Part shown: piece by piece, positions 10,336-21,421 of the stretch
Layout: each line of letters starts with the position of its first letter
Numbering within the stretch: position 1 is the first letter of the stretch
Assembly: GCA_913057135.1 (NCBI GenBank)
Contig: CAJXNM010000019.1
Span: 1-51,810, forward strand
From: an uncultured Halieaceae bacterium
GTDB taxonomy: Bacteria > Pseudomonadota > Gammaproteobacteria > Pseudomonadales > Halieaceae
Direction: 5' to 3'
Length of the DNA stretch: 51,810 nt
Position numbers and translations under genes: made by a program
The notes under the pieces: generated by a model
What the model saw: only the letters and a program-made list of their open reading frames with translations
What the model was told of the DNA's origin: nothing
Databases searched by the model: none

Positions 10336-10962
10336 ATGCACATTCAGCGATTGGGTCTTGTTGAGTACGCGCCAACCCTTGACGCCATGAAGCAATTCAC
10401 GGCCAATCGAACGGACCAAACCGATGATGAACTGTGGTTGTTGCAGCATCCACCGGTGTATACCCAGGGTATCTCCGGTAAGGCGGAACACGTACTCGAT
10501 GCCGGTGTTATTCCCATTGTGCCCATCGATCGAGGTGGGCAGGTGACCTATCACGGGCCTGGTCAATGGGTGGTATACACCCTGTTTGATCTGCGCCGAG
10601 CCGGGTTTGGGGTGCGCCAGTTGGTGACGGCCATTGAGTTGGCGGTCATCAATGTGCTGGCTGGTTATGGTATTTGCGCCAGCGCTGACGCAAAGCGTCC
10701 GGGTGTTTATGTAGGCGGGCGAAAAATTGCATCGCTAGGACTCAAGGTCAGTCGTGGTTGCAGTTATCACGGTGTTGCCCTGAATGTCGATATGGACCTA
10801 GAGCCTTTTCAGCGCATCAATCCCTGTGGCTATCCTGGGCTTGAAGTGACCTCTATGGCAGACGTGTTGGGCCTTGGTCCCTCGATGGATGATGTGGGAG
10901 AGAGCCTTCTTACGGCTCTGATTAAAAGCCTAACGTTAGACAACGCGAATGGAGATCAGTAA
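10336..10962 (+). CDS. lipB: Octanoyl-[acyl carrier protein] transferase
   Basis: 208 residues. It moves the octanoyl group from acyl carrier protein to lipoyl domains of 2-oxoacid dehydrogenases and the glycine cleavage H protein. Motifs: RGGQVTYHGPGQ (66-77), IASLGLKVSRG with the catalytic Lys137, and INPCGYPGL with the acyl-accepting Cys164. LipA, which inserts the sulfurs, is normally the next gene in this cluster but is absent here, so the lipoylation pathway must be completed by a gene outside the window. Confidence 0.96.
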   Translation: MHIQRLGLVEYAPTLDAMKQFTANRTDQTDDELWLLQHPPVYTQGISGKAEHVLDAGVIPIVPIDRGGQVTYHGPGQWVVYTLFDLRRAGFGVRQLVTAIELAVINVLAGYGICASADAKRPGVYVGGRKIASLGLKVSRGCSYHGVALNVDMDLEPFQRINPCGYPGLEVTSMADVLGLGPSMDDVGESLLTALIKSLTLDNANGDQ

Positions 10963-11172
10963 TTCAGGTTTGTTGGCTTGAAATATATTTGAGCATAACC
11001 TTGAGATCTATTTTGTTAGAAACGCCTTCAATCCCTAGTTGTTTAATTGTTCAAATTGAGTTGAATAATTAAAATCTGAAATCACTCTTTTGCCGTATTG
11101 CTTTTAATAGCCGAAATTCTGGGGTGTTCGTGATTTTGGTCCAATCCGTCCGCAGATAGCCGGCAATAGAAT
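10963..11172. other. AT-rich gap between lipB and the giant repeat-protein gene
   Basis: About 210 bases, clearly richer in A and T than the flanking operon, with no ORF or strong hairpin. It occupies the start of the position where lipA is expected. It must hold the promoter and binding site for the gene at 11173, but no convincing -35/-10 pair or Shine-Dalgarno was found; AATAGAAT lies directly before the ATG. Confidence 0.5.
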
Positions 11173-14100
11173 ATGCTTCATTCCTTTAAAGCCAAAAATT
11201 CCTCCAGAATTCATCTCGCTTTTAGAAACAGGGTACGGTTGTTGGGCTTTGCGTGGTGTGCAGTTGTATTGGTGTTTTCGACCGTATGGTTCGTTTTGCC
11301 GCTACATGCCATCGCGGCAATCAACGATGACGATGATGACGGTATTCTCAATAGCGTTGATGCCTGTCCGTTTACCCCTACCGTAGAGATTAGCCAAGTC
11401 GACAGCGATGGCTGTGGCCCCAGTAAGCGAGATTCCGATAGCGACGGTGTCGTTGATAGTGCTGACGTATTCCCGTTTGACCCATCAGAGGTGAGTGATG
11501 GTGATTTAGATGGGGTGGGTAACAATCGAGACGAGTGTTCGAGTACCTCGCCAGGGCGCGACGTGCTTTCTAATGGTTGTGCATTCTTGCCCCCAGAAAA
11601 GTTGGGTGTGACCATAGCCGGACAGGCGGTCGTTGACAAGTCGGGTACTTCCGTAGCCATCTCCGGAGACGGCCATACGGTAGCTATCGGAGCGCCCTAT
11701 AGTGCTTCTCTGCTCCAATTCCGCTTTTATAGCTGGGATGGACGCGCATGGCAGCAGCTGGGTCGGAGCATTTTTCGCGAGGGGTATGCTGATGTTTCGG
11801 GTTGGTCAGTAGCTATGTCCAGCGACGGCACAACGGTGGCTATTGGTGCTCGTGAAACCGGGGGAAATGGCTACAAGTCTGGCAGCATTAGTTTGTATCA
11901 CTGGAATGGCAGCAAGTGGTCACTGAGTTCGGTCATAAACGGTGAGGCCGCCGGTGATCAATTTGGCACTTCGGTAGCGCTCTCAAACGACGGTACGACG
12001 GTAGCTGTTGGTGCACCGTTTAATGACCATAATGGCACTGATTCTGGTCATGTCCGTTTGTATCGATCGGATGGCAGCACGTGGCAGCAGTTGGGTGCGG
12101 ACATTGCAGGTGAGGCGGCAGGTGATCAATCTGGTAATTCAGTAGCTCTCGCCAGTGACGGTAGCACTGTGGCTGTCGGGTCATGGGCTAATAACGGCAA
12201 CGGTGCTGCCTCTGGTCATGTTCGGTTATATCGCTGGAATGGAAGTACTTGGCAGCAGTTGGGTGCGGATATCGATGGTGAGACTGCTTATGATGAGTCG
12301 GGGAGTTCAGTTGCGCTCTCAAGCGACGGCAGTACGGTAGCTATCGGTGCCGCACATAACGACGGCAACGGACCTGATTCCGGTCATGTCCGTTTATATC
12401 GTTGGGATGGCAACTCTTGGCAGCAGCTGGGTGCGGACATCGACGGTGAGGCAGCTTACGATGAATCCGGTAGTTCAGTCGCCCTCTCCAGCGACGGTAC
12501 AGTGGTAGCCATTGGCGCGACAGGTAACGACAGTAATGGCATTGCTTCTGGCCATGTTCGCTTGTATCGCTGGGATGGCAGCGCGTGGCAGCAGCTGAGT
12601 TTGGACATTGACGGTGAGGCTGCCCTTGAACATTTCGGGACTTCAACAGCGCTTTCCAGCGACGGCAGCACGGTAGCTATTGGTTCGGACTGCAATGGCG
12701 ATTGCTCTGGCCGTGTGAGTATCTATGGCATCATCCAAGACAGTGATGAAGACGGTATTGGTGATACCTTCGATGCATTTCCTCTCGACCCAAACGAAAC
12801 CCTAGATACAGACCATGACGGTTCGGGTAACAATGCGGATATCGATGACGACGGTGATGGTGTTGATGACACAAGCGATGCCTTTCCCCTCGATGCAGCC
12901 GAGACCGGTGACGGAGATTTAGATGGCATAGGGGATCGGCGTGACGAGTGCCCGTACACAAGAGTGGGGAGGGTGGTGTTACCCAACGGTTGCGCCTTTA
13001 TTCAAAAAATAGAGCAAATGGGTTTGGACATTGATGGTGAGGCGGCCGGTGATGAATTGGGTACCTCCGTTGTCCTCTCGAGCGACGGCACGACGGTAGC
13101 TGTGGGTGCGAGGTACAACGATGGCAATGGCACTAAGTCTGGTCATGTTCGTTTGTTTCGCTGGGATGGCAGCGCGTGGCAGCAGCTGGGCGCGGATATC
13201 GACGGTGAGGCCGCTTACGATTATTCGGGCACCGCAGTATCCCTCTCCAGTGACGGTAACATTGTAGCCATTGGCGCGACGGGTAACGACGGCAACGGCA
13301 CTGATGCTGGTCATGTCCGTTTATATCGCTGGGATGGCAGCACTTGGCGACAGCTGGGGGCGGACATTGATGGTGAGGCTGCTTATGATGAATCCGGCAT
13401 TTCAGTCGCGCTCTCCAGCGACGGTAGCACGGTCGCCATTGGTGCCTGGTTCAATAGGGGTGGGTATGTTTCCGACCGAAGTAATGCTGGCCATGTGCGT
13501 TTGTATCGCTGGAATGGCGGCACGTGGCAGCGGCTGGGTGAGGAGCTCAGCGGCTCGTTTGGCGCGAATTCGGGTGCTTCAGTAGCACTCTCTAGCGACG
13601 GCACGACGGTAGCTGTTGGTGCGAGGTACGACGATGGCAATGGCGCCAGGTCTGGCCATGTGCGTTTATATCGCTGGAATGGCGGCATATGGCAGAAGCT
13701 AGGTGCAGACATTGACGGTGAAGCGGCCGGCGATGAGTCCGGAGTTTCAGTTGCTCTCTCTGGTGATGGCAGCACTGTAGCCGTTGGCGCGGCATATAAT
13801 GACGGCACAGGCGGCAATTCTGGTCATGTCCGTTTGCATCGCTGGGATGGCAACTCTTGGCAGCAGCTGGGTGCAGACATCGACGGTGAGGCGGCTTATG
13901 ATGAATCCGGTATTTCAGTCGCGCTCTCCAGCGACGGTAGCACGTTAGCCATTGGTGCCATGTACAACGATGGCAACGGCAGTAATTCCGGCCATATCCG
14001 TTTGTATCGCTGGGATGGTAGCACTTGGCGGCAGCTGGGGGAGGATATTAATGGTGAGGCGGCTGGTGACAGGTCGGGTGGATCGGTTGCTCTCTCCAAT

Positions 14101-17100
14101 GATGGCGGGACGTTAGCAATTGGTGCCACACGTAATGCCGACAACGGCAGTAATTCTGGCCATGTCCGCGTGTATACCATCATTCAGCAAGACGCTGACG
14201 AGGATGGTGTTGGTGACACCTTTGATGCGTTCCCCTTTAACTGGAGCGAAACTCTAGACACTGATGGCGACGGTATCGGTGACAATGCAGATATCGACGA
14301 TGACGGTGATGGTATTGACGACGTGATCGATGCCTTCCCTCTCGATGCTAATGAGTCCATGGATACCGATAATGATGGTATTGGCGACAATGCGGATACC
14401 AATCAGGATACTGATGGTGATGGTGTTGACGACATAATCGATGCCTTTCCTCTTGATATTACTGAGTCAATTGATACGGACAACGATGGCATTGGCAACA
14501 ACACCGACAACGATGACGATGGTGATGGTGCTGAAGATTTTAGCGATGCTTTTCCTCTCGATGCTGAGGAGACAAGCGACACAGATTCTGACGGTATCGG
14601 AGACAGGCGTGACGAATGTCCCAACACCACTCTAAACAGAGAAGTATTAGCTAATGGATGCGCGTTTGTCTCGCAACTACAACGTTTGGGTGTTGACATT
14701 GATGGTGAGGCCGCTGGTGACAGATCGGGTGGATCGGTTGCTCTCTCCGATGATGGCAGGGTGTTAGCAATTGGTGCCACAGTTAATGCCGACAACGGCA
14801 CTGACTCTGGCCATGTCCGTTTGTATCGCTGGAATGGCGGCACTTGGCAACAGCTGGGTGCGGATATTGACGGTGAGGCGGCCGGCGATGAGTCAGGAGT
14901 TTCAGTTGTCCTCTCTAGCGACGGCAGCACAGTAGCAATCGGTGCTCACCTCAACGACGGCAACGGTACTGATGCTGGTCATGTCCGTTTATATCGCTGG
15001 GATGGTAGTACTTGGCGCCAGTTGGGCGCGGATATTGATGGAGAGGCAGCTGGTGACCGGTCGGGTCGGTCAATAGCGCTCACCAGTGACGGCAGTACGA
15101 TAGCCATTGGCGCGACGGGTAACGACGGCAACGGCGCTGATGCTGGTCATGTCCGTTTGTATCGCTGGGATGGCAGTACTTGGGGCCAGTTGGGTGCGGA
15201 CATTGATGGAGAGGCAGCTGGTGACAGGTCGGGCGGGTCAGTAGCACTTGCCAGTGACGGCAGTACGATAGCCATTGGCGCGACGGGTAACGACGGCAAC
15301 GGCACCGATGCTGGTCATGTCCGCTTGTATCACTGGGATGGCGGTATTTGGCGCCAGCTGGGTGCGGACATTGATGGAGAGGCAGCTGGTGACAGGTCGG
15401 GCGGGTCAGTAGCACTTGCCAGTGACGGTAGTACGATAGCCATTGGCGCGACGGGTAACGACGGCAACGGCACTGATGCTGGTCATATCCGTTTATATCG
15501 CTGGGATGGCAGCATTTGGCACCAGCTGGGCGCGGATATTGAGGGAGAGGCCGCTTACGATTATTCGGGGATTGCAGTCGCTCTATCTGCCGATGGCAAT
15601 ACGGCAGCGAGGGGTGCGATCTTAAACGATGGCTATGGCAATGATTCGGGCCACGTCCGGCTATACCACTGGGATGGCAGCGCTTGGAAGCAGTTGGGTG
15701 CTGACATAAATGGTGAGTGGGCTTTTGATTGGTCTGGCGCTTCAGTTGCCATTTCCAGTGATAGTAGTTCGGTAGCTATTGGTGCCATTTACAACGATGG
15801 CAACGGCACTGATTCTGGCAATGTCCGCATTTACAAAATTATTCAGCAAGACAGCGATGAAGACGGAGTTAGCGATGTTTTTGATGCTTTTCCCCTCGAT
15901 CCTTACGAAATTCTAGATGCCGATGGCGATGGCACTGGTGATAATACGGATGTGGATGATGATGGTGATGGTGTTGACGACCTCAGTGATGCATTCCCAT
16001 TCGATGCTACAGAAACGAGTGACGGAGATTCAGATGGCATCGGAGATAATCATGATGAGTGTCCCAACACAACACCAGGGCGAGAGGTACTACTCAATGG
16101 ATGCGCGTTTGTGCCTCAGCAACAATTGGGTGCGGACATTGACGGTGAGGCGTCTGTTGATCTATCGGGCGAGTCGGTAGCACTCTCCAGCAACGGCACA
16201 ACCTTAGCCATTGGTGCTCACCTAAACGATGGCAATGGCACGGATTCTGGTAACGTCCGACTTTATCGATGGGAAGGGGGCGCGTGGCAGCAACTGGGTG
16301 CGAATATTGGCGGTGAGGCAGCGGGTGACTGGTCGGGCAGTTCAGTTGCTCTCTCTGGTGATGGCGGCACAGTAGCAATCGGTGCTTTCCTCAACGACGG
16401 CAACGGTACTGATGCTGGCCATGTCCGTTTATATCGCTGGGATGGTAGTACTTGGCGCCAGTTGGGCGCGGACATTGATGGAGAGGCAGCGGGTGACTGG
16501 TCGGGCAGTTCAGTTGCTCTCTCTGGTGATGGCAGCACTGTTGCCGTTGGTGCGCGATATAATGACGGCACAGGTGGCAATTCTGGTCATGTCCGTTTGT
16601 ATCGCTGGGATGGCAGCACTTGGCGCCAGTTGGGTACGGACATTGATGGAGAAGCCGCTGACGATTATTCGGGCATTGCAGTGTCCCTGTCCAGTGACGG
16701 CGGTACGATAGCCATTGGCGCGACAGGTAACGACGGCAACGGCACTGGTGCTGGTCATGTCCGTCTGTATCGCTGGGATGGCAGTATTTGGCAACAGCTG
16801 GGCGCGGACATTGATGGAGAGGCCGCTTACGATCGTTCGGGCGTTGCAGTGTCCCTGTCCAGTGACGGCAGTACGATAGCCATTGGCTCGACGGGTAACG
16901 ATGACAATGGCCCTGATTCTGGTCATGTCCGTTTGTATCGCTGGGATGGCAGCGCTTGGAAGCAGCTAGGCGCGGGCATTGACGGCGAGGTAGCTGGTGA
17001 TAAGTCGGGAGGGTCAATAGCACTCACCGGCGACGGCAGTACGATAGCCATTGGTGCGACAGATAACGACGACAATGGTACTGACTCTGGCCATGTTCGT

Positions 17101-19716
17101 TTGTACCGCTGGAATGGCAGTAGTTGGCAGCAACTGGGTGCAGACGTTGAGGGTGAGGCTGAGGGTGACGAGTCCGGTGGGTCAGTTGCCCTGTCCAGCG
17201 ACGGCGGCACGTTAGCTATTGGTGCGAGAGCTAACGACGGCAATGGCTTTTTGTCTGGCCATGTCCGCGTTTATAACATCATTCAGCAAGACACTGATGA
17301 AGATGGGGTTGGCGACGCCGATGACCCATTCCCACTAGATGCTACTGAATCCATAGATACGGACAACGATGGCGTTGGTAACAATACAGACACTGATGAC
17401 GACGGCGATGGTGTTGGCGACACTGTAGATCCATTCCCATTGGATTTTGCCGAGTCTGTAGACACAGATGGCGACGGTATTGGCAATAACACTGATACGG
17501 ATGACGATGGTGATGGCGTTGGAGATACCAATGATGCGTTCCCCCTTGATGCCACCGAGTCTGTAGACACAGACAACGATGGCATCGGCAACAACGCAGA
17601 CACCGATGACGACGGCGATGGTATCGATGACAGCACCGACGACTTTCCCCTTGATGCTACTGAGTCACTGGACATAGATGGCGACGGTATTGGCAATAAC
17701 AGTGATACCGATGACGATGGCGATGGCGTTGAAGATACCAATGATGCGTTCCCACAGGACGCCACCGAGTTCGTCGATACAGACAACGATGGCATCGGTA
17801 ACAACACCGACACCGATGACGATGGTGATGGTGTTAGCGATATTACCGACCCATTTCCGCTAGACGCCACTGAATCCGCCGATACGGATGGTGACGGCAT
17901 CGGTAACAACACAGATGCCTGCCCACTCGAGGCTGTCGCGAAAAGTATTGACAAAGATTTTCTGATTTGGAGTGTAGTTGCGCCTCAAATTGCCGAGTCT
18001 ATATCAGTGCGGGAAGGCTGCCCCGGCCTTTGGCAGCAAGTGGGTAACAGCATCACGATTTCGCAGGCGGGTATGAGTCCCCCATTAGCCATGTCACAAG
18101 AAGGTGATGTCGTTGCTGTTGGTTCTATTCGCGGTTCACCCCTTACTGTGTACGAGTTGACAGAGGGTACTTATGTACAGCGAGGCGATCCAATCCCCGA
18201 TTCCGAATTAGCGAACGCTTATGTTTCGGCTCTCGATCTATCAGCCGATGGTTCTGTGCTAGTGGTCGGGGCCCCCGGTGCGAGACCTGGAAACTTCGCT
18301 GGTGGCGCCGTTTTTGTCTTTGATTGGAACGGCACCAATTGGGTGCGGCGCAGTGTTCTCAGCGATAATCAGATCCCGCGTTTTGGTCGCTCGGTGAGTG
18401 TCTCAAATGATGGCCGACGTATCGCCGTGGGTGCTCCTGGGTCATCGGCATTCGATGAAGGGAGGAGTGCTGTATACGAGTGGAACGGCATGTCGTGGCG
18501 TCAATTGGGCTCGACGATTGTCGGTGAGCGACCTGAGGATTACGCGGGTTACTCAGTGTCTCTGGCAGGAGATGGTCAGTCGTTGGCTGTAGGTGCACCG
18601 GGCAATGACGGCGGTTCTGGCAGTAACGTCGAAAATACCAACAAGGGCCATGTTCGTATTTACCGTTGGACTGGCACTACTTGGTCTCAGCGTGGCTTAG
18701 ATATTGATGCATTACCCACCCCCGATTCTTTCGATGCTGCACCGGCGGGCCTTAATTTTGGGCACTCGGTAGCACTATCGGCCGATGGTTTGACGGTGGC
18801 GATTGGTAGTGCTCAGCAGGCACCGCCCGAGGCACAGGCCACGGCGCTCGACCCATTTGCTGATCCTGCGGTTCCTATTGATCAATTCGTACCTGCTTTT
18901 GGCAGTCCAGTTCGTGTCTTCGACTGGACTGGTAGTCAATGGGAGCAGCGTAGCCTCGATGGGATTCCCAGAACTACACCGCAGTACACTGGCGGTCCCT
19001 CTTCCCCTACAGGACCTGATGCCGATATAAGTGACTTGGTCGCCATCTCCGACGACGGCCTATTGGTAGCGGTTGGGCAGGGTGGACTTGTGGGCTCGGA
19101 GCCAGTCCGAGTATTCCGCTGGAACCAAGAGGCAGCCATTCCTCAGTGGGAGCAATGGGGTAATGCAATTGGCGATGACATAGCTGCTGGTGGTAACACG
19201 GGCGGCGCTATTGCACTATCCGGCGACGGAACCAGGCTTATCGTCGGGCCATTCCCTGCCACGTCGTCGTCCGATGTAACTTTAACAACCTACAGGCTTG
19301 TTCCACGTCTTACTGACACTGACAATGATGGCATTCCAGATAAAGATGACGCGTTCCCTGAAGATGTGACTGAGTCGGTAGACACCGATAGCGACGGTAT
19401 CGGCGACAACGCTGATGCATTCCCCAATGACGGCAGTGAAACCGCAGATACTGACGGCGATGGTGTGGGCGACAACAGCGATGCTTTCCCGCGAGATAGC
19501 TCTGAGACTATAGATACCGATGGCGACGGTCTGGGGGACAATCTAGAGCAAACATTGGGTACCAAACTCGACGTGGCCGATTCGGATGCCGATGGCTTCA
19601 CCGACAAGGAAGAGTATGAGGCAGGCAGCAACCCGACCGATGCCAATGATGAACCCTTAGCAGCTGGCTTACCTATTTGGCTACTCCATGAGGCCAGCAA
19701 GCTGAGAGCTCAATAA
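11173..19716 (+). CDS. Giant secreted FG-GAP-like propeller / TSP3 calcium-repeat protein
   Basis: 2847 residues. A long signal peptide (basic first 22 residues, hydrophobic 23-45, cleavage near AIAA at 46-49) leads into acidic TSP3-type calcium repeats of the DxDGDGxxD kind. Then come five propeller domains separated by TSP3 linkers. Each propeller has seven blades of about 56 residues with the pattern LGADIDGEAAGDxSGxSVAL, SSDGSTVAIGA, NDGNGTDSGHVRLYRW and DGSTWQQ. The first four propellers end in an I-I-Q closing strand. Four linkers carry the pair DEC(S/P)xTxxGRxVLxNGCAF just before a propeller, likely a disulfide loop. The C terminus has a TSP3 block and a short hydrophobic-basic tail. 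FG-GAP-type propellers bind ligands or other proteins at cell surfaces, and TSP3 repeats stiffen with calcium; an adhesin or matrix role is inference. No enzyme domain was seen. Confidence 0.85.
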   Translation: MLHSFKAKNSSRIHLAFRNRVRLLGFAWCAVVLVFSTVWFVLPLHAIAAINDDDDDGILNSVDACPFTPTVEISQVDSDGCGPSKRDSDSDGVVDSADVFPFDPSEVSDGDLDGVGNNRDECSSTSPGRDVLSNGCAFLPPEKLGVTIAGQAVVDKSGTSVAISGDGHTVAIGAPYSASLLQFRFYSWDGRAWQQLGRSIFREGYADVSGWSVAMSSDGTTVAIGARETGGNGYKSGSISLYHWNGSKWSLSSVINGEAAGDQFGTSVALSNDGTTVAVGAPFNDHNGTDSGHVRLYRSDGSTWQQLGADIAGEAAGDQSGNSVALASDGSTVAVGSWANNGNGAASGHVRLYRWNGSTWQQLGADIDGETAYDESGSSVALSSDGSTVAIGAAHNDGNGPDSGHVRLYRWDGNSWQQLGADIDGEAAYDESGSSVALSSDGTVVAIGATGNDSNGIASGHVRLYRWDGSAWQQLSLDIDGEAALEHFGTSTALSSDGSTVAIGSDCNGDCSGRVSIYGIIQDSDEDGIGDTFDAFPLDPNETLDTDHDGSGNNADIDDDGDGVDDTSDAFPLDAAETGDGDLDGIGDRRDECPYTRVGRVVLPNGCAFIQKIEQMGLDIDGEAAGDELGTSVVLSSDGTTVAVGARYNDGNGTKSGHVRLFRWDGSAWQQLGADIDGEAAYDYSGTAVSLSSDGNIVAIGATGNDGNGTDAGHVRLYRWDGSTWRQLGADIDGEAAYDESGISVALSSDGSTVAIGAWFNRGGYVSDRSNAGHVRLYRWNGGTWQRLGEELSGSFGANSGASVALSSDGTTVAVGARYDDGNGARSGHVRLYRWNGGIWQKLGADIDGEAAGDESGVSVALSGDGSTVAVGAAYNDGTGGNSGHVRLHRWDGNSWQQLGADIDGEAAYDESGISVALSSDGSTLAIGAMYNDGNGSNSGHIRLYRWDGSTWRQLGEDINGEAAGDRSGGSVALSNDGGTLAIGATRNADNGSNSGHVRVYTIIQQDADEDGVGDTFDAFPFNWSETLDTDGDGIGDNADIDDDGDGIDDVIDAFPLDANESMDTDNDGIGDNADTNQDTDGDGVDDIIDAFPLDITESIDTDNDGIGNNTDNDDDGDGAEDFSDAFPLDAEETSDTDSDGIGDRRDECPNTTLNREVLANGCAFVSQLQRLGVDIDGEAAGDRSGGSVALSDDGRVLAIGATVNADNGTDSGHVRLYRWNGGTWQQLGADIDGEAAGDESGVSVVLSSDGSTVAIGAHLNDGNGTDAGHVRLYRWDGSTWRQLGADIDGEAAGDRSGRSIALTSDGSTIAIGATGNDGNGADAGHVRLYRWDGSTWGQLGADIDGEAAGDRSGGSVALASDGSTIAIGATGNDGNGTDAGHVRLYHWDGGIWRQLGADIDGEAAGDRSGGSVALASDGSTIAIGATGNDGNGTDAGHIRLYRWDGSIWHQLGADIEGEAAYDYSGIAVALSADGNTAARGAILNDGYGNDSGHVRLYHWDGSAWKQLGADINGEWAFDWSGASVAISSDSSSVAIGAIYNDGNGTDSGNVRIYKIIQQDSDEDGVSDVFDAFPLDPYEILDADGDGTGDNTDVDDDGDGVDDLSDAFPFDATETSDGDSDGIGDNHDECPNTTPGREVLLNGCAFVPQQQLGADIDGEASVDLSGESVALSSNGTTLAIGAHLNDGNGTDSGNVRLYRWEGGAWQQLGANIGGEAAGDWSGSSVALSGDGGTVAIGAFLNDGNGTDAGHVRLYRWDGSTWRQLGADIDGEAAGDWSGSSVALSGDGSTVAVGARYNDGTGGNSGHVRLYRWDGSTWRQLGTDIDGEAADDYSGIAVSLSSDGGTIAIGATGNDGNGTGAGHVRLYRWDGSIWQQLGADIDGEAAYDRSGVAVSLSSDGSTIAIGSTGNDDNGPDSGHVRLYRWDGSAWKQLGAGIDGEVAGDKSGGSIALTGDGSTIAIGATDNDDNGTDSGHVRLYRWNGSSWQQLGADVEGEAEGDESGGSVALSSDGGTLAIGARANDGNGFLSGHVRVYNIIQQDTDEDGVGDADDPFPLDATESIDTDNDGVGNNTDTDDDGDGVGDTVDPFPLDFAESVDTDGDGIGNNTDTDDDGDGVGDTNDAFPLDATESVDTDNDGIGNNADTDDDGDGIDDSTDDFPLDATESLDIDGDGIGNNSDTDDDGDGVEDTNDAFPQDATEFVDTDNDGIGNNTDTDDDGDGVSDITDPFPLDATESADTDGDGIGNNTDACPLEAVAKSIDKDFLIWSVVAPQIAESISVREGCPGLWQQVGNSITISQAGMSPPLAMSQEGDVVAVGSIRGSPLTVYELTEGTYVQRGDPIPDSELANAYVSALDLSADGSVLVVGAPGARPGNFAGGAVFVFDWNGTNWVRRSVLSDNQIPRFGRSVSVSNDGRRIAVGAPGSSAFDEGRSAVYEWNGMSWRQLGSTIVGERPEDYAGYSVSLAGDGQSLAVGAPGNDGGSGSNVENTNKGHVRIYRWTGTTWSQRGLDIDALPTPDSFDAAPAGLNFGHSVALSADGLTVAIGSAQQAPPEAQATALDPFADPAVPIDQFVPAFGSPVRVFDWTGSQWEQRSLDGIPRTTPQYTGGPSSPTGPDADISDLVAISDDGLLVAVGQGGLVGSEPVRVFRWNQEAAIPQWEQWGNAIGDDIAAGGNTGGAIALSGDGTRLIVGPFPATSSSDVTLTTYRLVPRLTDTDNDGIPDKDDAFPEDVTESVDTDSDGIGDNADAFPNDGSETADTDGDGVGDNSDAFPRDSSETIDTDGDGLGDNLEQTLGTKLDVADSDADGFTDKEEYEAGSNPTDANDEPLAAGLPIWLLHEASKLRAQ
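11602..12738 (+). repeat. Propeller 1 (seven blades)
   Basis: 379 residues made of seven consecutive blade repeats. The first three are the most divergent of the array (for example IAGQAVVDKSG and IFREGYADVSG). Blade 7 closes with VSIYGIIQ. It is followed by a 93-residue TSP3 linker (12739-13017) with a DEC...NGCAF cysteine pair. Confidence 0.85.
13018..14190 (+). repeat. Propeller 2 (seven blades)
   Basis: 391 residues, seven blades, from MGLDIDGEAAG to VRVYTIIQQ. Blade 3 carries a short insertion (RGGYVSDRSNAG) and blade 4 has lost two residues in its first strand (LGEELSGSFGANSG). Followed by a 165-residue TSP3 linker (14191-14685). Confidence 0.85.
14686..15849 (+). repeat. Propeller 3 (seven blades)
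   Basis: 388 residues, seven blades, ending VRIYKIIQQ. Blades 3-5 are nearly identical at the DNA level (see the 15022-15525 entry). Blade 6 contains AARGA in place of the usual VAIGA. Followed by a 92-residue TSP3 linker (15850-16125). Confidence 0.85.
15022..15525 (+). repeat. Three near-identical 168-bp tandem repeats
   Basis: Units begin at 15022, 15190 and 15358 with an exact 168-base period (56 codons). The second and third units differ at only about three positions over the roughly 125 bases from GACATTGATGGAGAGGCAGC to GCTGGTCAT. This indicates recent duplication or gene conversion inside propeller 3. Confidence 0.9.
16126..17289 (+). repeat. Propeller 4 (seven blades)
   Basis: 388 residues, the same length as propeller 3 and exactly 1440 bases downstream of it. 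Ends VRVYNIIQQ. The DNA at 16371-16490 almost repeats 14931-15050. Followed by the longest TSP3 linker (17290-18027, about 246 residues, with repeated DTDNDGIGNNTDTDDDGDG units). Confidence 0.85.
18028..19308 (+). repeat. Propeller 5 (seven divergent blades)
   Basis: 427 residues. Seven blades can still be counted by the repeating LSADG/VSNDG, VAVGAPG and W-x-x-R/Q elements, but the loops vary in length (long insertions in blades 4-6) and the sequence is far from the consensus of propellers 1-4. It lacks the I-I-Q closing strand and ends TTYRLVPR. It is likely older, or under different selection. Confidence 0.7.
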
Positions 19717-19729
19717 ACGTTAGCCATGG

Positions 19730-19759
19730 CCGTCGTAGGCGCAACACCGCCTGCGACGG
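19730..19759 (+). terminator. Strong hairpin after the giant gene
   Basis: CCGTCGTAGGCG (19730-19741) pairs with CGCCTGCGACGG (19748-19759), 12 pairs with one G-U and a six-base loop, 13 bases past the stop. No U-run follows (TATCTCGCG), so termination may need help or the hairpin may protect the mRNA end. Confidence 0.55.
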
Positions 19760-19831
19760 TATCTCGCGCTACGCAATGATTACCGCCGCACTCCACATGC
19801 TGGCATAATCCCGCCCCCTGAAGGAGGCGTC

Positions 19832-21421
19832 ATGTCAGAAACCCAAACCGATTTAAAGCGCGCTATTGCGGCGCGTCGTACCTTTGCCATTATCTCGCAC
19901 CCGGACGCGGGTAAGACCACCATGACCGAGAAGCTGTTGTTGCTCGGTAGTGCTATTCAAGTGGCGGGTTCGGTTAAGGGTAAGCGCGGTCCACATGCCA
20001 CCTCTGACTGGATGTCACTAGAGCAAGAACGGGGCATTTCAGTGACTTCTTCGGTCATGCAGTTCCCCTATCGCGATCGCACGGTCAATCTGCTGGATAC
20101 CCCCGGGCACGAGGATTTTTCCGAGGATACCTACCGTACGCTCACCGCCGTTGACTCGGCGTTGATGGTGATCGACGGGGCCAAAGGTGTCGAAGATCGA
20201 ACGATCAAGCTGATGAACGTATGTCGTTTGCGCGACACTCCCATTATTAGCTTTGTGAACAAACTTGACCGGGACATTCGTGATCCGATCGAGCTGCTCG
20301 ATGAAATTGAAGAAGTGCTGGGTATTGCCGGAGCCCCTATTAACTGGCCAGTGGGTATGGGGCGGCATTTAAAGGGCGTATACAACCTGTATACCGATAC
20401 CTTTCACGTTTACGAATCAGGTCACAACGCTGTTCTGCCGCCGGATGAGCGCATTGAGGGTCTCGATTCCGACGAGGCGCGGGCGTTACTCGACGATGAG
20501 TACGATAATTTCTGCGAAGAGATTGAGCTGGTGCGTGGCGCCAGTCACAGTTTTGATCGGGAGCTCTTTCTGGCTGGTCAGTTGACACCCGTATTTTTTG
20601 GTACTGCCCTTGGCAACTTTGGTGTTCGAGAAATGCTCGATCAGTTTGTTGAATGGGCACCGGCACCGTTAGCACGGTCCACGCAGAGTCGTGAAGTTGA
20701 CCCTTACGAGTCACAGTTTTCGGGCTTCGTGTTCAAGATACAAGCGAATATGGATCCAAAACATCGGGATCGGATTGCCTTCGTCCGCGTCTGCTCAGGT
20801 CGCTATGACAAGGGTATGAAAATGCGCCATGTGCGGACTGGGAAAGATATTCGTATAGCCGATGCGGTGTCCTTTAAGGCCGGCGAGCGCGTGCTCGTGG
20901 AAGAGGCGGTTTCGGGGGACATTATTGGCTTACACAACCACGGCACTTTGCAAATTGGCGATACCTTCACTCAGGGCGATGACCTGAGATACACCGGAAT
21001 CCCGCACTTTGCGCCGGAGTTATTTCGTCGTATTCGTCTGAAAGATCCAATGAAAATGAAGGCGCTGCAAAAGGGTCTGCAACAACTCTCGGAGGAGGGG
21101 TCAACCCAAGTATTCTCGCCGCTCAATAACAGCGATCTCATTGTGGGTGCGGTTGGGCAGTTACAGTTCGACGTTGTGGCCTATCGCCTCAAGGATGAGT
21201 ACAAGGTCGAGGCGGTGTACGAGCCCGTGAGTGTTTACACGGCCCGTTGGGTGGAAGCAGATGACCCGCGCAAGCTCGAGGAGTTCCGCAAGAAAGCCGC
21301 GGATAACTTGTCGGAGGATGGGGGCGGTTATCTCACCTACCTGGCACCGACACGGGTTAATTTATCGCTCATGGAGGAGCGCTGGCCCGATATCCGCTTT
21401 AGGGCAACCCGCGAGCATTAA
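19832..21421 (+). CDS. prfC: Peptide chain release factor 3
   Basis: 529 residues, the normal RF3 length. A translational GTPase that removes RF1 or RF2 from the ribosome after peptide release. The G1 motif SHPDAGKTT is at 22-30, the G3 region is [14 protein letters not shown], and the G4 motif is NKLD. The RF3-specific C-terminal domains follow. A perfect AAGGAGG lies eight bases before the ATG, and CATAAT about 25 bases upstream could be the -10 of its own promoter. Confidence 0.97.

Follow-up and report, generated by a model that had tools for sequence, protein, structure and literature searches.

A 2847-residue protein of five predicted seven-bladed propellers on TSP3 linkers in an uncultured Halieaceae bacterium

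Tandem propellers of seven blades each were described in bacterial proteins in 2011, both as integrin-type FG-GAP chains with 14 repeats, in which a strand is predicted before every seven-blade set (PMC3192720), and as three successive propellers in Npun_R4253 of Nostoc punctiforme (PMC3123361). Herein, we examine a gene of this kind in a stretch of 51,810 nucleotides, the whole of which we call the window, from an uncultured Halieaceae bacterium (assembly GCA_913057135.1, contig CAJXNM010000019.1, positions 1 to 51,810). A single ATG-to-stop frame on its forward strand (11173..19716) encodes a protein of 2847 amino acids, which represents a known kind at an unusually large size: five seven-bladed integrin-like propellers on calcium-repeat linkers. 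The features by which it stands out are its five rings on TSP3 linkers, the lack of any blade register between propellers, and its position between lipB- and prfC-like genes.

The protein resembles the integrin-type FG-GAP set of PMC3192720 in having seven blades per propeller, a predicted strand before blade 1 that would complete blade 7, sevens in tandem (2 x 7 there), and no transmembrane helix. Two aspects set it apart. First, that set carries a calcium motif in every blade, whereas all 45 Dx[DN]xDG motifs of the protein described here lie outside the propellers, so that the in-blade DxDxDG-type calcium site belonging to the strict integrin-type definition is absent from its five blocks. 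Second, its sets number five and are joined by TSP3 linkers. Npun_R4253 likewise holds several tandem seven-bladed propellers (three), but these are built largely of calcium blades, in contrast to the five rings of motif-free blades found herein, where calcium motifs are confined to linkers and termini. A further parallel is the WRAP protein Npun_R6612 (PMC6805158), in which 14 blades form one recently amplified domain, the velcro strand lies outside the repeat, and new propellers arise by blade amplification; WRAP, however, belongs to the WD40 family, and its blades are nearer to identical than those here. The linkers have their own counterparts in the type 3 repeats of thrombospondins and COMP (3fby, 2rhp, 1yo8, 1ux6), which share the Asp-rich calcium repeats and match the linkers in sequence; unlike in those proteins, the repeats here separate propellers and advance in steps of about 35 residues, judged by the spacing of their FP motifs. 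Among the matches listed for open-licence literature naming both FG-GAP and thrombospondin type 3, the accessible text described no propeller chain on TSP3 linkers.

Propellers and linkers of the 2847-residue protein

Pfam FG-GAP_2 (PF14312) matches the protein with 380.4 bits (gathering score, 23; E 2e-116), and 10 stretches pass on their own. With a blade profile derived from the protein itself (24 blades in blocks 1 to 4, blade 7 of each block excluded), all 28 blades of those blocks were recovered (28.2 to 107.3 bits), and block 5 was matched at seven blade positions (4.2 to 53.5 bits; residues 2305, 2354, 2403, 2456, 2528, 2623, and 2671). The fifth of these blades is interrupted by a long loop and has its second piece at 2580. 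Because this profile is self-built, the independent checks weigh more, namely FG-GAP_2 and profiles made mainly from relatives, and the latter also gave seven blades in each of five blocks. Both blade counts agree with the preliminary description of this DNA, which had counted 35 blades in five blocks within one chain, and the I-I-Q end that it reported for the first four blocks was found at residues 522, 1005, 1558, and 2038.

The blade profile delimits propellers P1 (11596..12738; residues 142-522) and P2 (13012..14187; residues 614-1005), which, like every feature of the gene given below, lie on the forward strand. P3 (14677..15846; residues 1169-1558) is further defined by its predicted fold, and P4 (16120..17286; residues 1650-2038) and the divergent P5 (18028..19311; residues 2286-2713), with seven weak blades, by the profile together with a structural model. 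The predicted structure of block 3 is a domain of its own with 28 strands in the order 1+6x4+3, that is, strands for seven blades, and the solved folds closest to it are integrin alpha; block 3 is thus predicted to have the seven-bladed integrin-like fold in the strict sense of PMC3192720. In a model spanning P4, its linker, and P5, the best solved folds for the P4 part were likewise integrin alpha, and no strand was assigned at model residues 391-636, which form the linker. The FG-GAP-type propellers named in the preliminary description are therefore upheld by family match, strand count, and fold, and the structure prediction it had proposed, applied to block 3 and to the stretch from P4 to P5, revealed neither blades shared across linkers nor a blade number other than seven. 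The strand order of block 3 is also compatible with velcro pairing, and most likely, on this model, a strand ahead of blade 1 would complete blade 7, giving a coding unit of D+(ABCD)x6+ABC. Such closure would make seven the closing number and let each bead fold alone.

Between the propellers lie linkers of 91 (12739..13011), 163 (14188..14676), 91 (15847..16119), and 247 residues (17287..18027), measured from I-I-Q to the next first strand, the first with the C-terminal motif CPxT..GR.VLxNGC and the last with 17 Dx[DN]xDG motifs. They contain 2, 4, 2, and 6 FP motifs, respectively, spaced 35 to 37 residues apart. The lengths first given for them (93, 165, 92, and 246) differ only in where the boundaries were placed; their assignment as TSP3 linkers stood, as did the beads-on-a-string order. 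Pfam TSP_3 (PF02412) scored 83 bits against a cut-off of 25 as a whole-protein sum, with no stretch passing E 0.001 alone, and phmmer at E <= 0.1 matched five PDB sequences, all through TSP3-type parts of the protein: COMP, two thrombospondin-2 chains, thrombospondin-1, and one bacterial OmpA-family protein. The thrombospondin-1 match runs across several linkers (residues 1055-2189), while COMP and the thrombospondin-2 chains match at residues 2033-2204. Judged by their sequence, the repeats probably bind calcium, which might stiffen or compact the linkers and in this way fix the spacing of the beads.

The array is framed by an N-terminal segment (11173..11319), whose hydrophobic stretch (residues ~22-45; Kyte-Doolittle average up to 2.35 at residues 28-42) reads as a probable signal peptide with a long n-region and makes secretion likely, and by an N-terminal TSP3-type region (11320..11595; residues 50-141) with four Cys and three Dx[DN]xDG motifs. 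Behind P5 come a C-terminal TSP3-type region (19312..19665) with five such motifs and a C-terminal tail, GLPIWLLHEASKLRAQ (19666..19713).

Several other family matches were set aside. Pfam ARF_AD (60.3 bits; cut-off, 27) and DUF2244 (33.4 bits; cut-off, 27) passed as sums only, with no stretch passing alone, and NCBIfam PGF_pre_PGF (94.5 bits; cut-off, 28) also passed as a sum only; the best stretches of all three fall within blades, which marks them as repeat-driven. The cell-cell cohesion protein MtsC (NF047638) reached 142.5 bits against a curated cut-off of 350, and MtsD and Amuc_1099 scored below their cut-offs. PADLOC returned no families, and literature searches on MtsC/MtsD and Myxococcus cohesion yielded nothing useful.

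Blade number in relatives

The search for the same blade rule in homologues, suggested in the preliminary description, drew on two samples, both biased toward strong matches. The first (genome_contigs) comprised 80 relatives' loci from many phyla, selected as the best among 138 confirmed loci after a search with a complete seven-blade query; the second, from the same class, comprised the best-match region of the 27 best-scoring of 57 other genomes with a match, plus one extra region each from G297 and G112. One-blade runs, matches below 3 bits, and matches not covering the A-B core were dropped before counting, and runs within 250 bases of the end of a stretch were treated as cut. In the genome_contigs sample, 81 of 89 uncut runs were multiples of seven (79 of 7, one of 14, and one of 21), the exceptions being runs of 4 (one), 5 (two), 6 (four), and 13 (one), and four of the eight cut runs had seven. 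The class sample gave seven in 32 of 39 uncut runs, with exceptions of 2 (one), 4 (two), 5 (one), and 6 (three), plus one cut run of 4. Closer to home (the window, contig C30 of its genome, and G006, G020, and G007 from the genus; G029 and G031 from the order), seven was found in 10 of 11 runs, five of them the window's own, with G007 giving 4.

Chains of several rings also recur: 7,7,7,7 in G112 and, in the same genus, 7,7,6,7 in G240; 7,7,7 in L111 (by an earlier count); and 21 blades in L110 (14+7) and in L082, two records from Blastopirellula and Cysteiniphilum. The runs of 21 and 14 blades in L082 (7979-13678) and L110 have no linker between propellers. The closest match in number is a genome from another family of the same class, G043 (L264, G043:C7:12500-31500; L265), with a 4966-aa frame of about 35 FG-GAP_2 blades and a 2504-residue frame of 21; its blades, however, are contiguous, spaced 55 to 82 residues apart without the linkers present here. 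A profile including G043's own blades gave 35, 21, 21, 16, 3, 7, and 5 blades for seven frames of that genome, whereas one without them gave 35, 21, 18, 14, 3, 7, and 5 with a lenient threshold and 34, 21, 16, 10, 2, 7, and 5 with a stricter one. Of these counts, 35, 7, and the first 21 can be taken as fairly firm; the other 21 cannot, and the remaining frames do not fit seven.

Seven is the usual ring number in the FG-GAP_2 family, and a count of 5 x 7 is, for that reason, no sign by itself of anything unusual; known biology accounts for it. The preliminary description had held such strict regularity to be unusual in one bacterial chain, a claim that gives way before the prevalence of sevens in relatives, the frame of about 35 blades in G043, and the 2 x 7 and 3 x 7 chains already published in 2011. 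Its interpretation is partly supported: the observation is real and was well described, and the main claim is ordinary.

Some of the exceptions resemble missed weak blades, as in L111 (7 in the earlier count and 6 later) and L236, which stands beside its congener L233. In others (L067, L098, L112, and L114), every blade is strong, and these may be genuine exceptions or products of loss or collapse. The 5 x 7 count could, in principle, likewise stem from an assembly that collapsed or expanded near-identical repeats: the assembly has 103 contigs, and the gene is repetitive, with a longest exact repeat of 70 bp and 10 different recurring 61-mers; among relatives, exact repeats of 50-81 bp occur in five of eight odd-count runs examined versus repeats of 54-107 bp in 4 of 18 seven-blade controls. 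However, no 77-mer is repeated in the gene, so ordinary read lengths should suffice and the blade count is unlikely to stem from misassembly. Random collapse is hardly compatible with seven in all five blocks, and multiples of seven predominate in relatives. We regard an assembly product as scarcely credible.

Blade similarity and genomic position

The blades of P1 to P4 are about 65% identical regardless of position: same-position blades across propellers share 65.3% (42 pairs), versus 64.2% at different positions (252 pairs), and a register shift of zero was the best of seven in only two of six propeller pairs, by a margin of 0.4 points each. No register is thus left from duplication of whole rings, and simple whole-ring duplication is unsupported, although an old ring duplication whose register has since decayed may be an alternative to reshuffling. 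Their sequences look as if blades had been reshuffled while each ring kept seven. Blades 3 to 5 of P3, which are 85 to 92% alike, show a local amplification, and P5, only 31 to 33% identical to P1-P4, is an older or foreign ring. Blades of the window are nearly as similar to those of a paralogue on contig C30 (63.2% identity, 196 pairs) as to one another (65.3%, 378 pairs), against 51.8% for G020. That paralogue (L029, G000:C30:6675-8900) is a 742-residue frame with one propeller of seven blades, a similar N-terminal TSP3-type region, a TSP3-type tail, and a GLPIWML end.

The gene lies between a lipB-like gene (10336..10962) and a prfC-like gene (19832..21421), both on the forward strand and named from a reading of their translations without a family search. 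Both were found in 22 of 24 same-genus genomes and adjoin on one contig in all 22, with 43 to 165 bp between the matched stretches versus 8,872 bp in the window (distances derived by hand from coordinates; in G017 and G008, where a gene is split, from one part of it). Compared with the same-genus genomes holding both flanks, only the window's genome has a gene in this interval (10962-19832). The element GGCATAAT stands just before the prfC start in 20 of 24 loci, the other four comprising two whose prfC match starts mid-gene and two whose register is displaced by a contig edge; in the window, the element persists where the insert ends on the right. From the flank comparison and this kept element, we infer that the gene entered between the end of lipB and the region in which prfC begins, and that this region stayed whole. 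None of the 24 loci, all turned to one orientation, matched the 210 bp on the gene's left side when these were compared alone; GC content is 54.7% in the gene and 54.6% in the window; and neither flank yielded a site in scans for promoters and terminators.

A tentative account would join these observations. Blades may be reshuffled, duplicated, and lost freely, with chains kept only if every ring closes at seven, so that growth would proceed by whole rings and strings of 35 blades, with linkers here and about 35 without them in G043, would record selection for closure. The gene would then be a fresh insertion of a calcium-tuned, five-headed, integrin-like binding string. We offer this as a possibility rather than as our expectation.

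Proposed function of the chain

On balance, the protein is probably a secreted, multi-domain surface or matrix protein, in which five separately closed seven-bladed integrin-alpha-like propellers on acidic TSP3 linkers serve multivalent binding. Its likely role would be weak-affinity, multivalent binding of glycans, particles, or neighbouring cells, and the C-terminal region could either retain it at the surface or allow its release. The tail motif GLP[IVL]W[LM]..., 12 to 21 residues before the stop, closes proteins of differing make-up, a sharing that would be consistent with surface retention. It was found in 4 of 10 DNA-pattern matches in the window's own genome (C19, C30, C39, and C82), 4 of 9 in G020, and 1 of 5 in G006, and it occurs perhaps once in G018; chance pattern matches are common, and one match each from G020 and G006 was not traced to a stop or was unexamined. 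Besides the window (19666-19713), the tail-bearing loci are L029, L030, L217, L218, L220, L221, L222, and L158. The ends of two tail-bearing proteins matched no sorting-signal family in NCBIfam, and we treat the tail as a candidate sorting or anchoring signal.

Several points weigh against this proposal. The faint last-strand pieces ahead of blocks 2 to 5 (residues 615, 1169, 1650, and 2286), which stand alone as first strands, score only -3.6 to 2.8 bits with the blade profile, and none was reported before block 1. The model of P4, linker, and P5 is poor for P5 and the linkers (overall pLDDT 63, pTM 0.44; linker ~25-30; 10-row alignment) and gives no relative placement of the beads, and structure comparison of that model reported P4 alone, with no separate fold match for P5. 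The analysis identified neither a ligand site nor a partner gene or dedicated export system, the neighbouring genes read from their translations as housekeeping, and a profile match and fold carry no information on adhesion.

The same architecture could serve a non-adhesive end, as a surface filament with a structural or protective role or as a matrix scaffold that is released, in either case without a specific ligand. Uniform blades and repeated linkers resemble a spacer or scaffold, no evidence of a ligand site was found, and the spread is patchy, with propeller-part matches in 4 of 24 same-genus genomes (G004, G006, G007, and G020) and FG-GAP_2 in 58 of 274 class-sample genomes, the window's own included. 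Set against this are the account of propellers as serving chiefly to scaffold interactions and catalysis (PMC8023676) and the adhesion proposed for such repeats in marine flavobacteria (PMC2668756), and we hold a purely structural role to be rather unlikely. Nor do the propellers appear to belong to a secreted enzyme or degradative complex whose beads hold substrate or accessory domains: no catalytic domain was found at E <= 0.001 in Pfam or NCBIfam, and a match to CylK is one of fold alone, making this very improbable. We rank adhesion or matrix binding first and a plain structural filament second; adhesion is plausible from the fold class, the multivalency, and the flavobacterial proposal.

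The protein is a candidate for a modular surface protein with several heads and a dependence on calcium; the heads are predicted to share the propeller fold of integrin alpha. With the count of 5 x 7 accounted for, the remaining interest lies in the size of the example and in the rule of ring closure under blade turnover, for which this gene offers a natural case of how repeat proteins hold ring size fixed while their repeats turn over.
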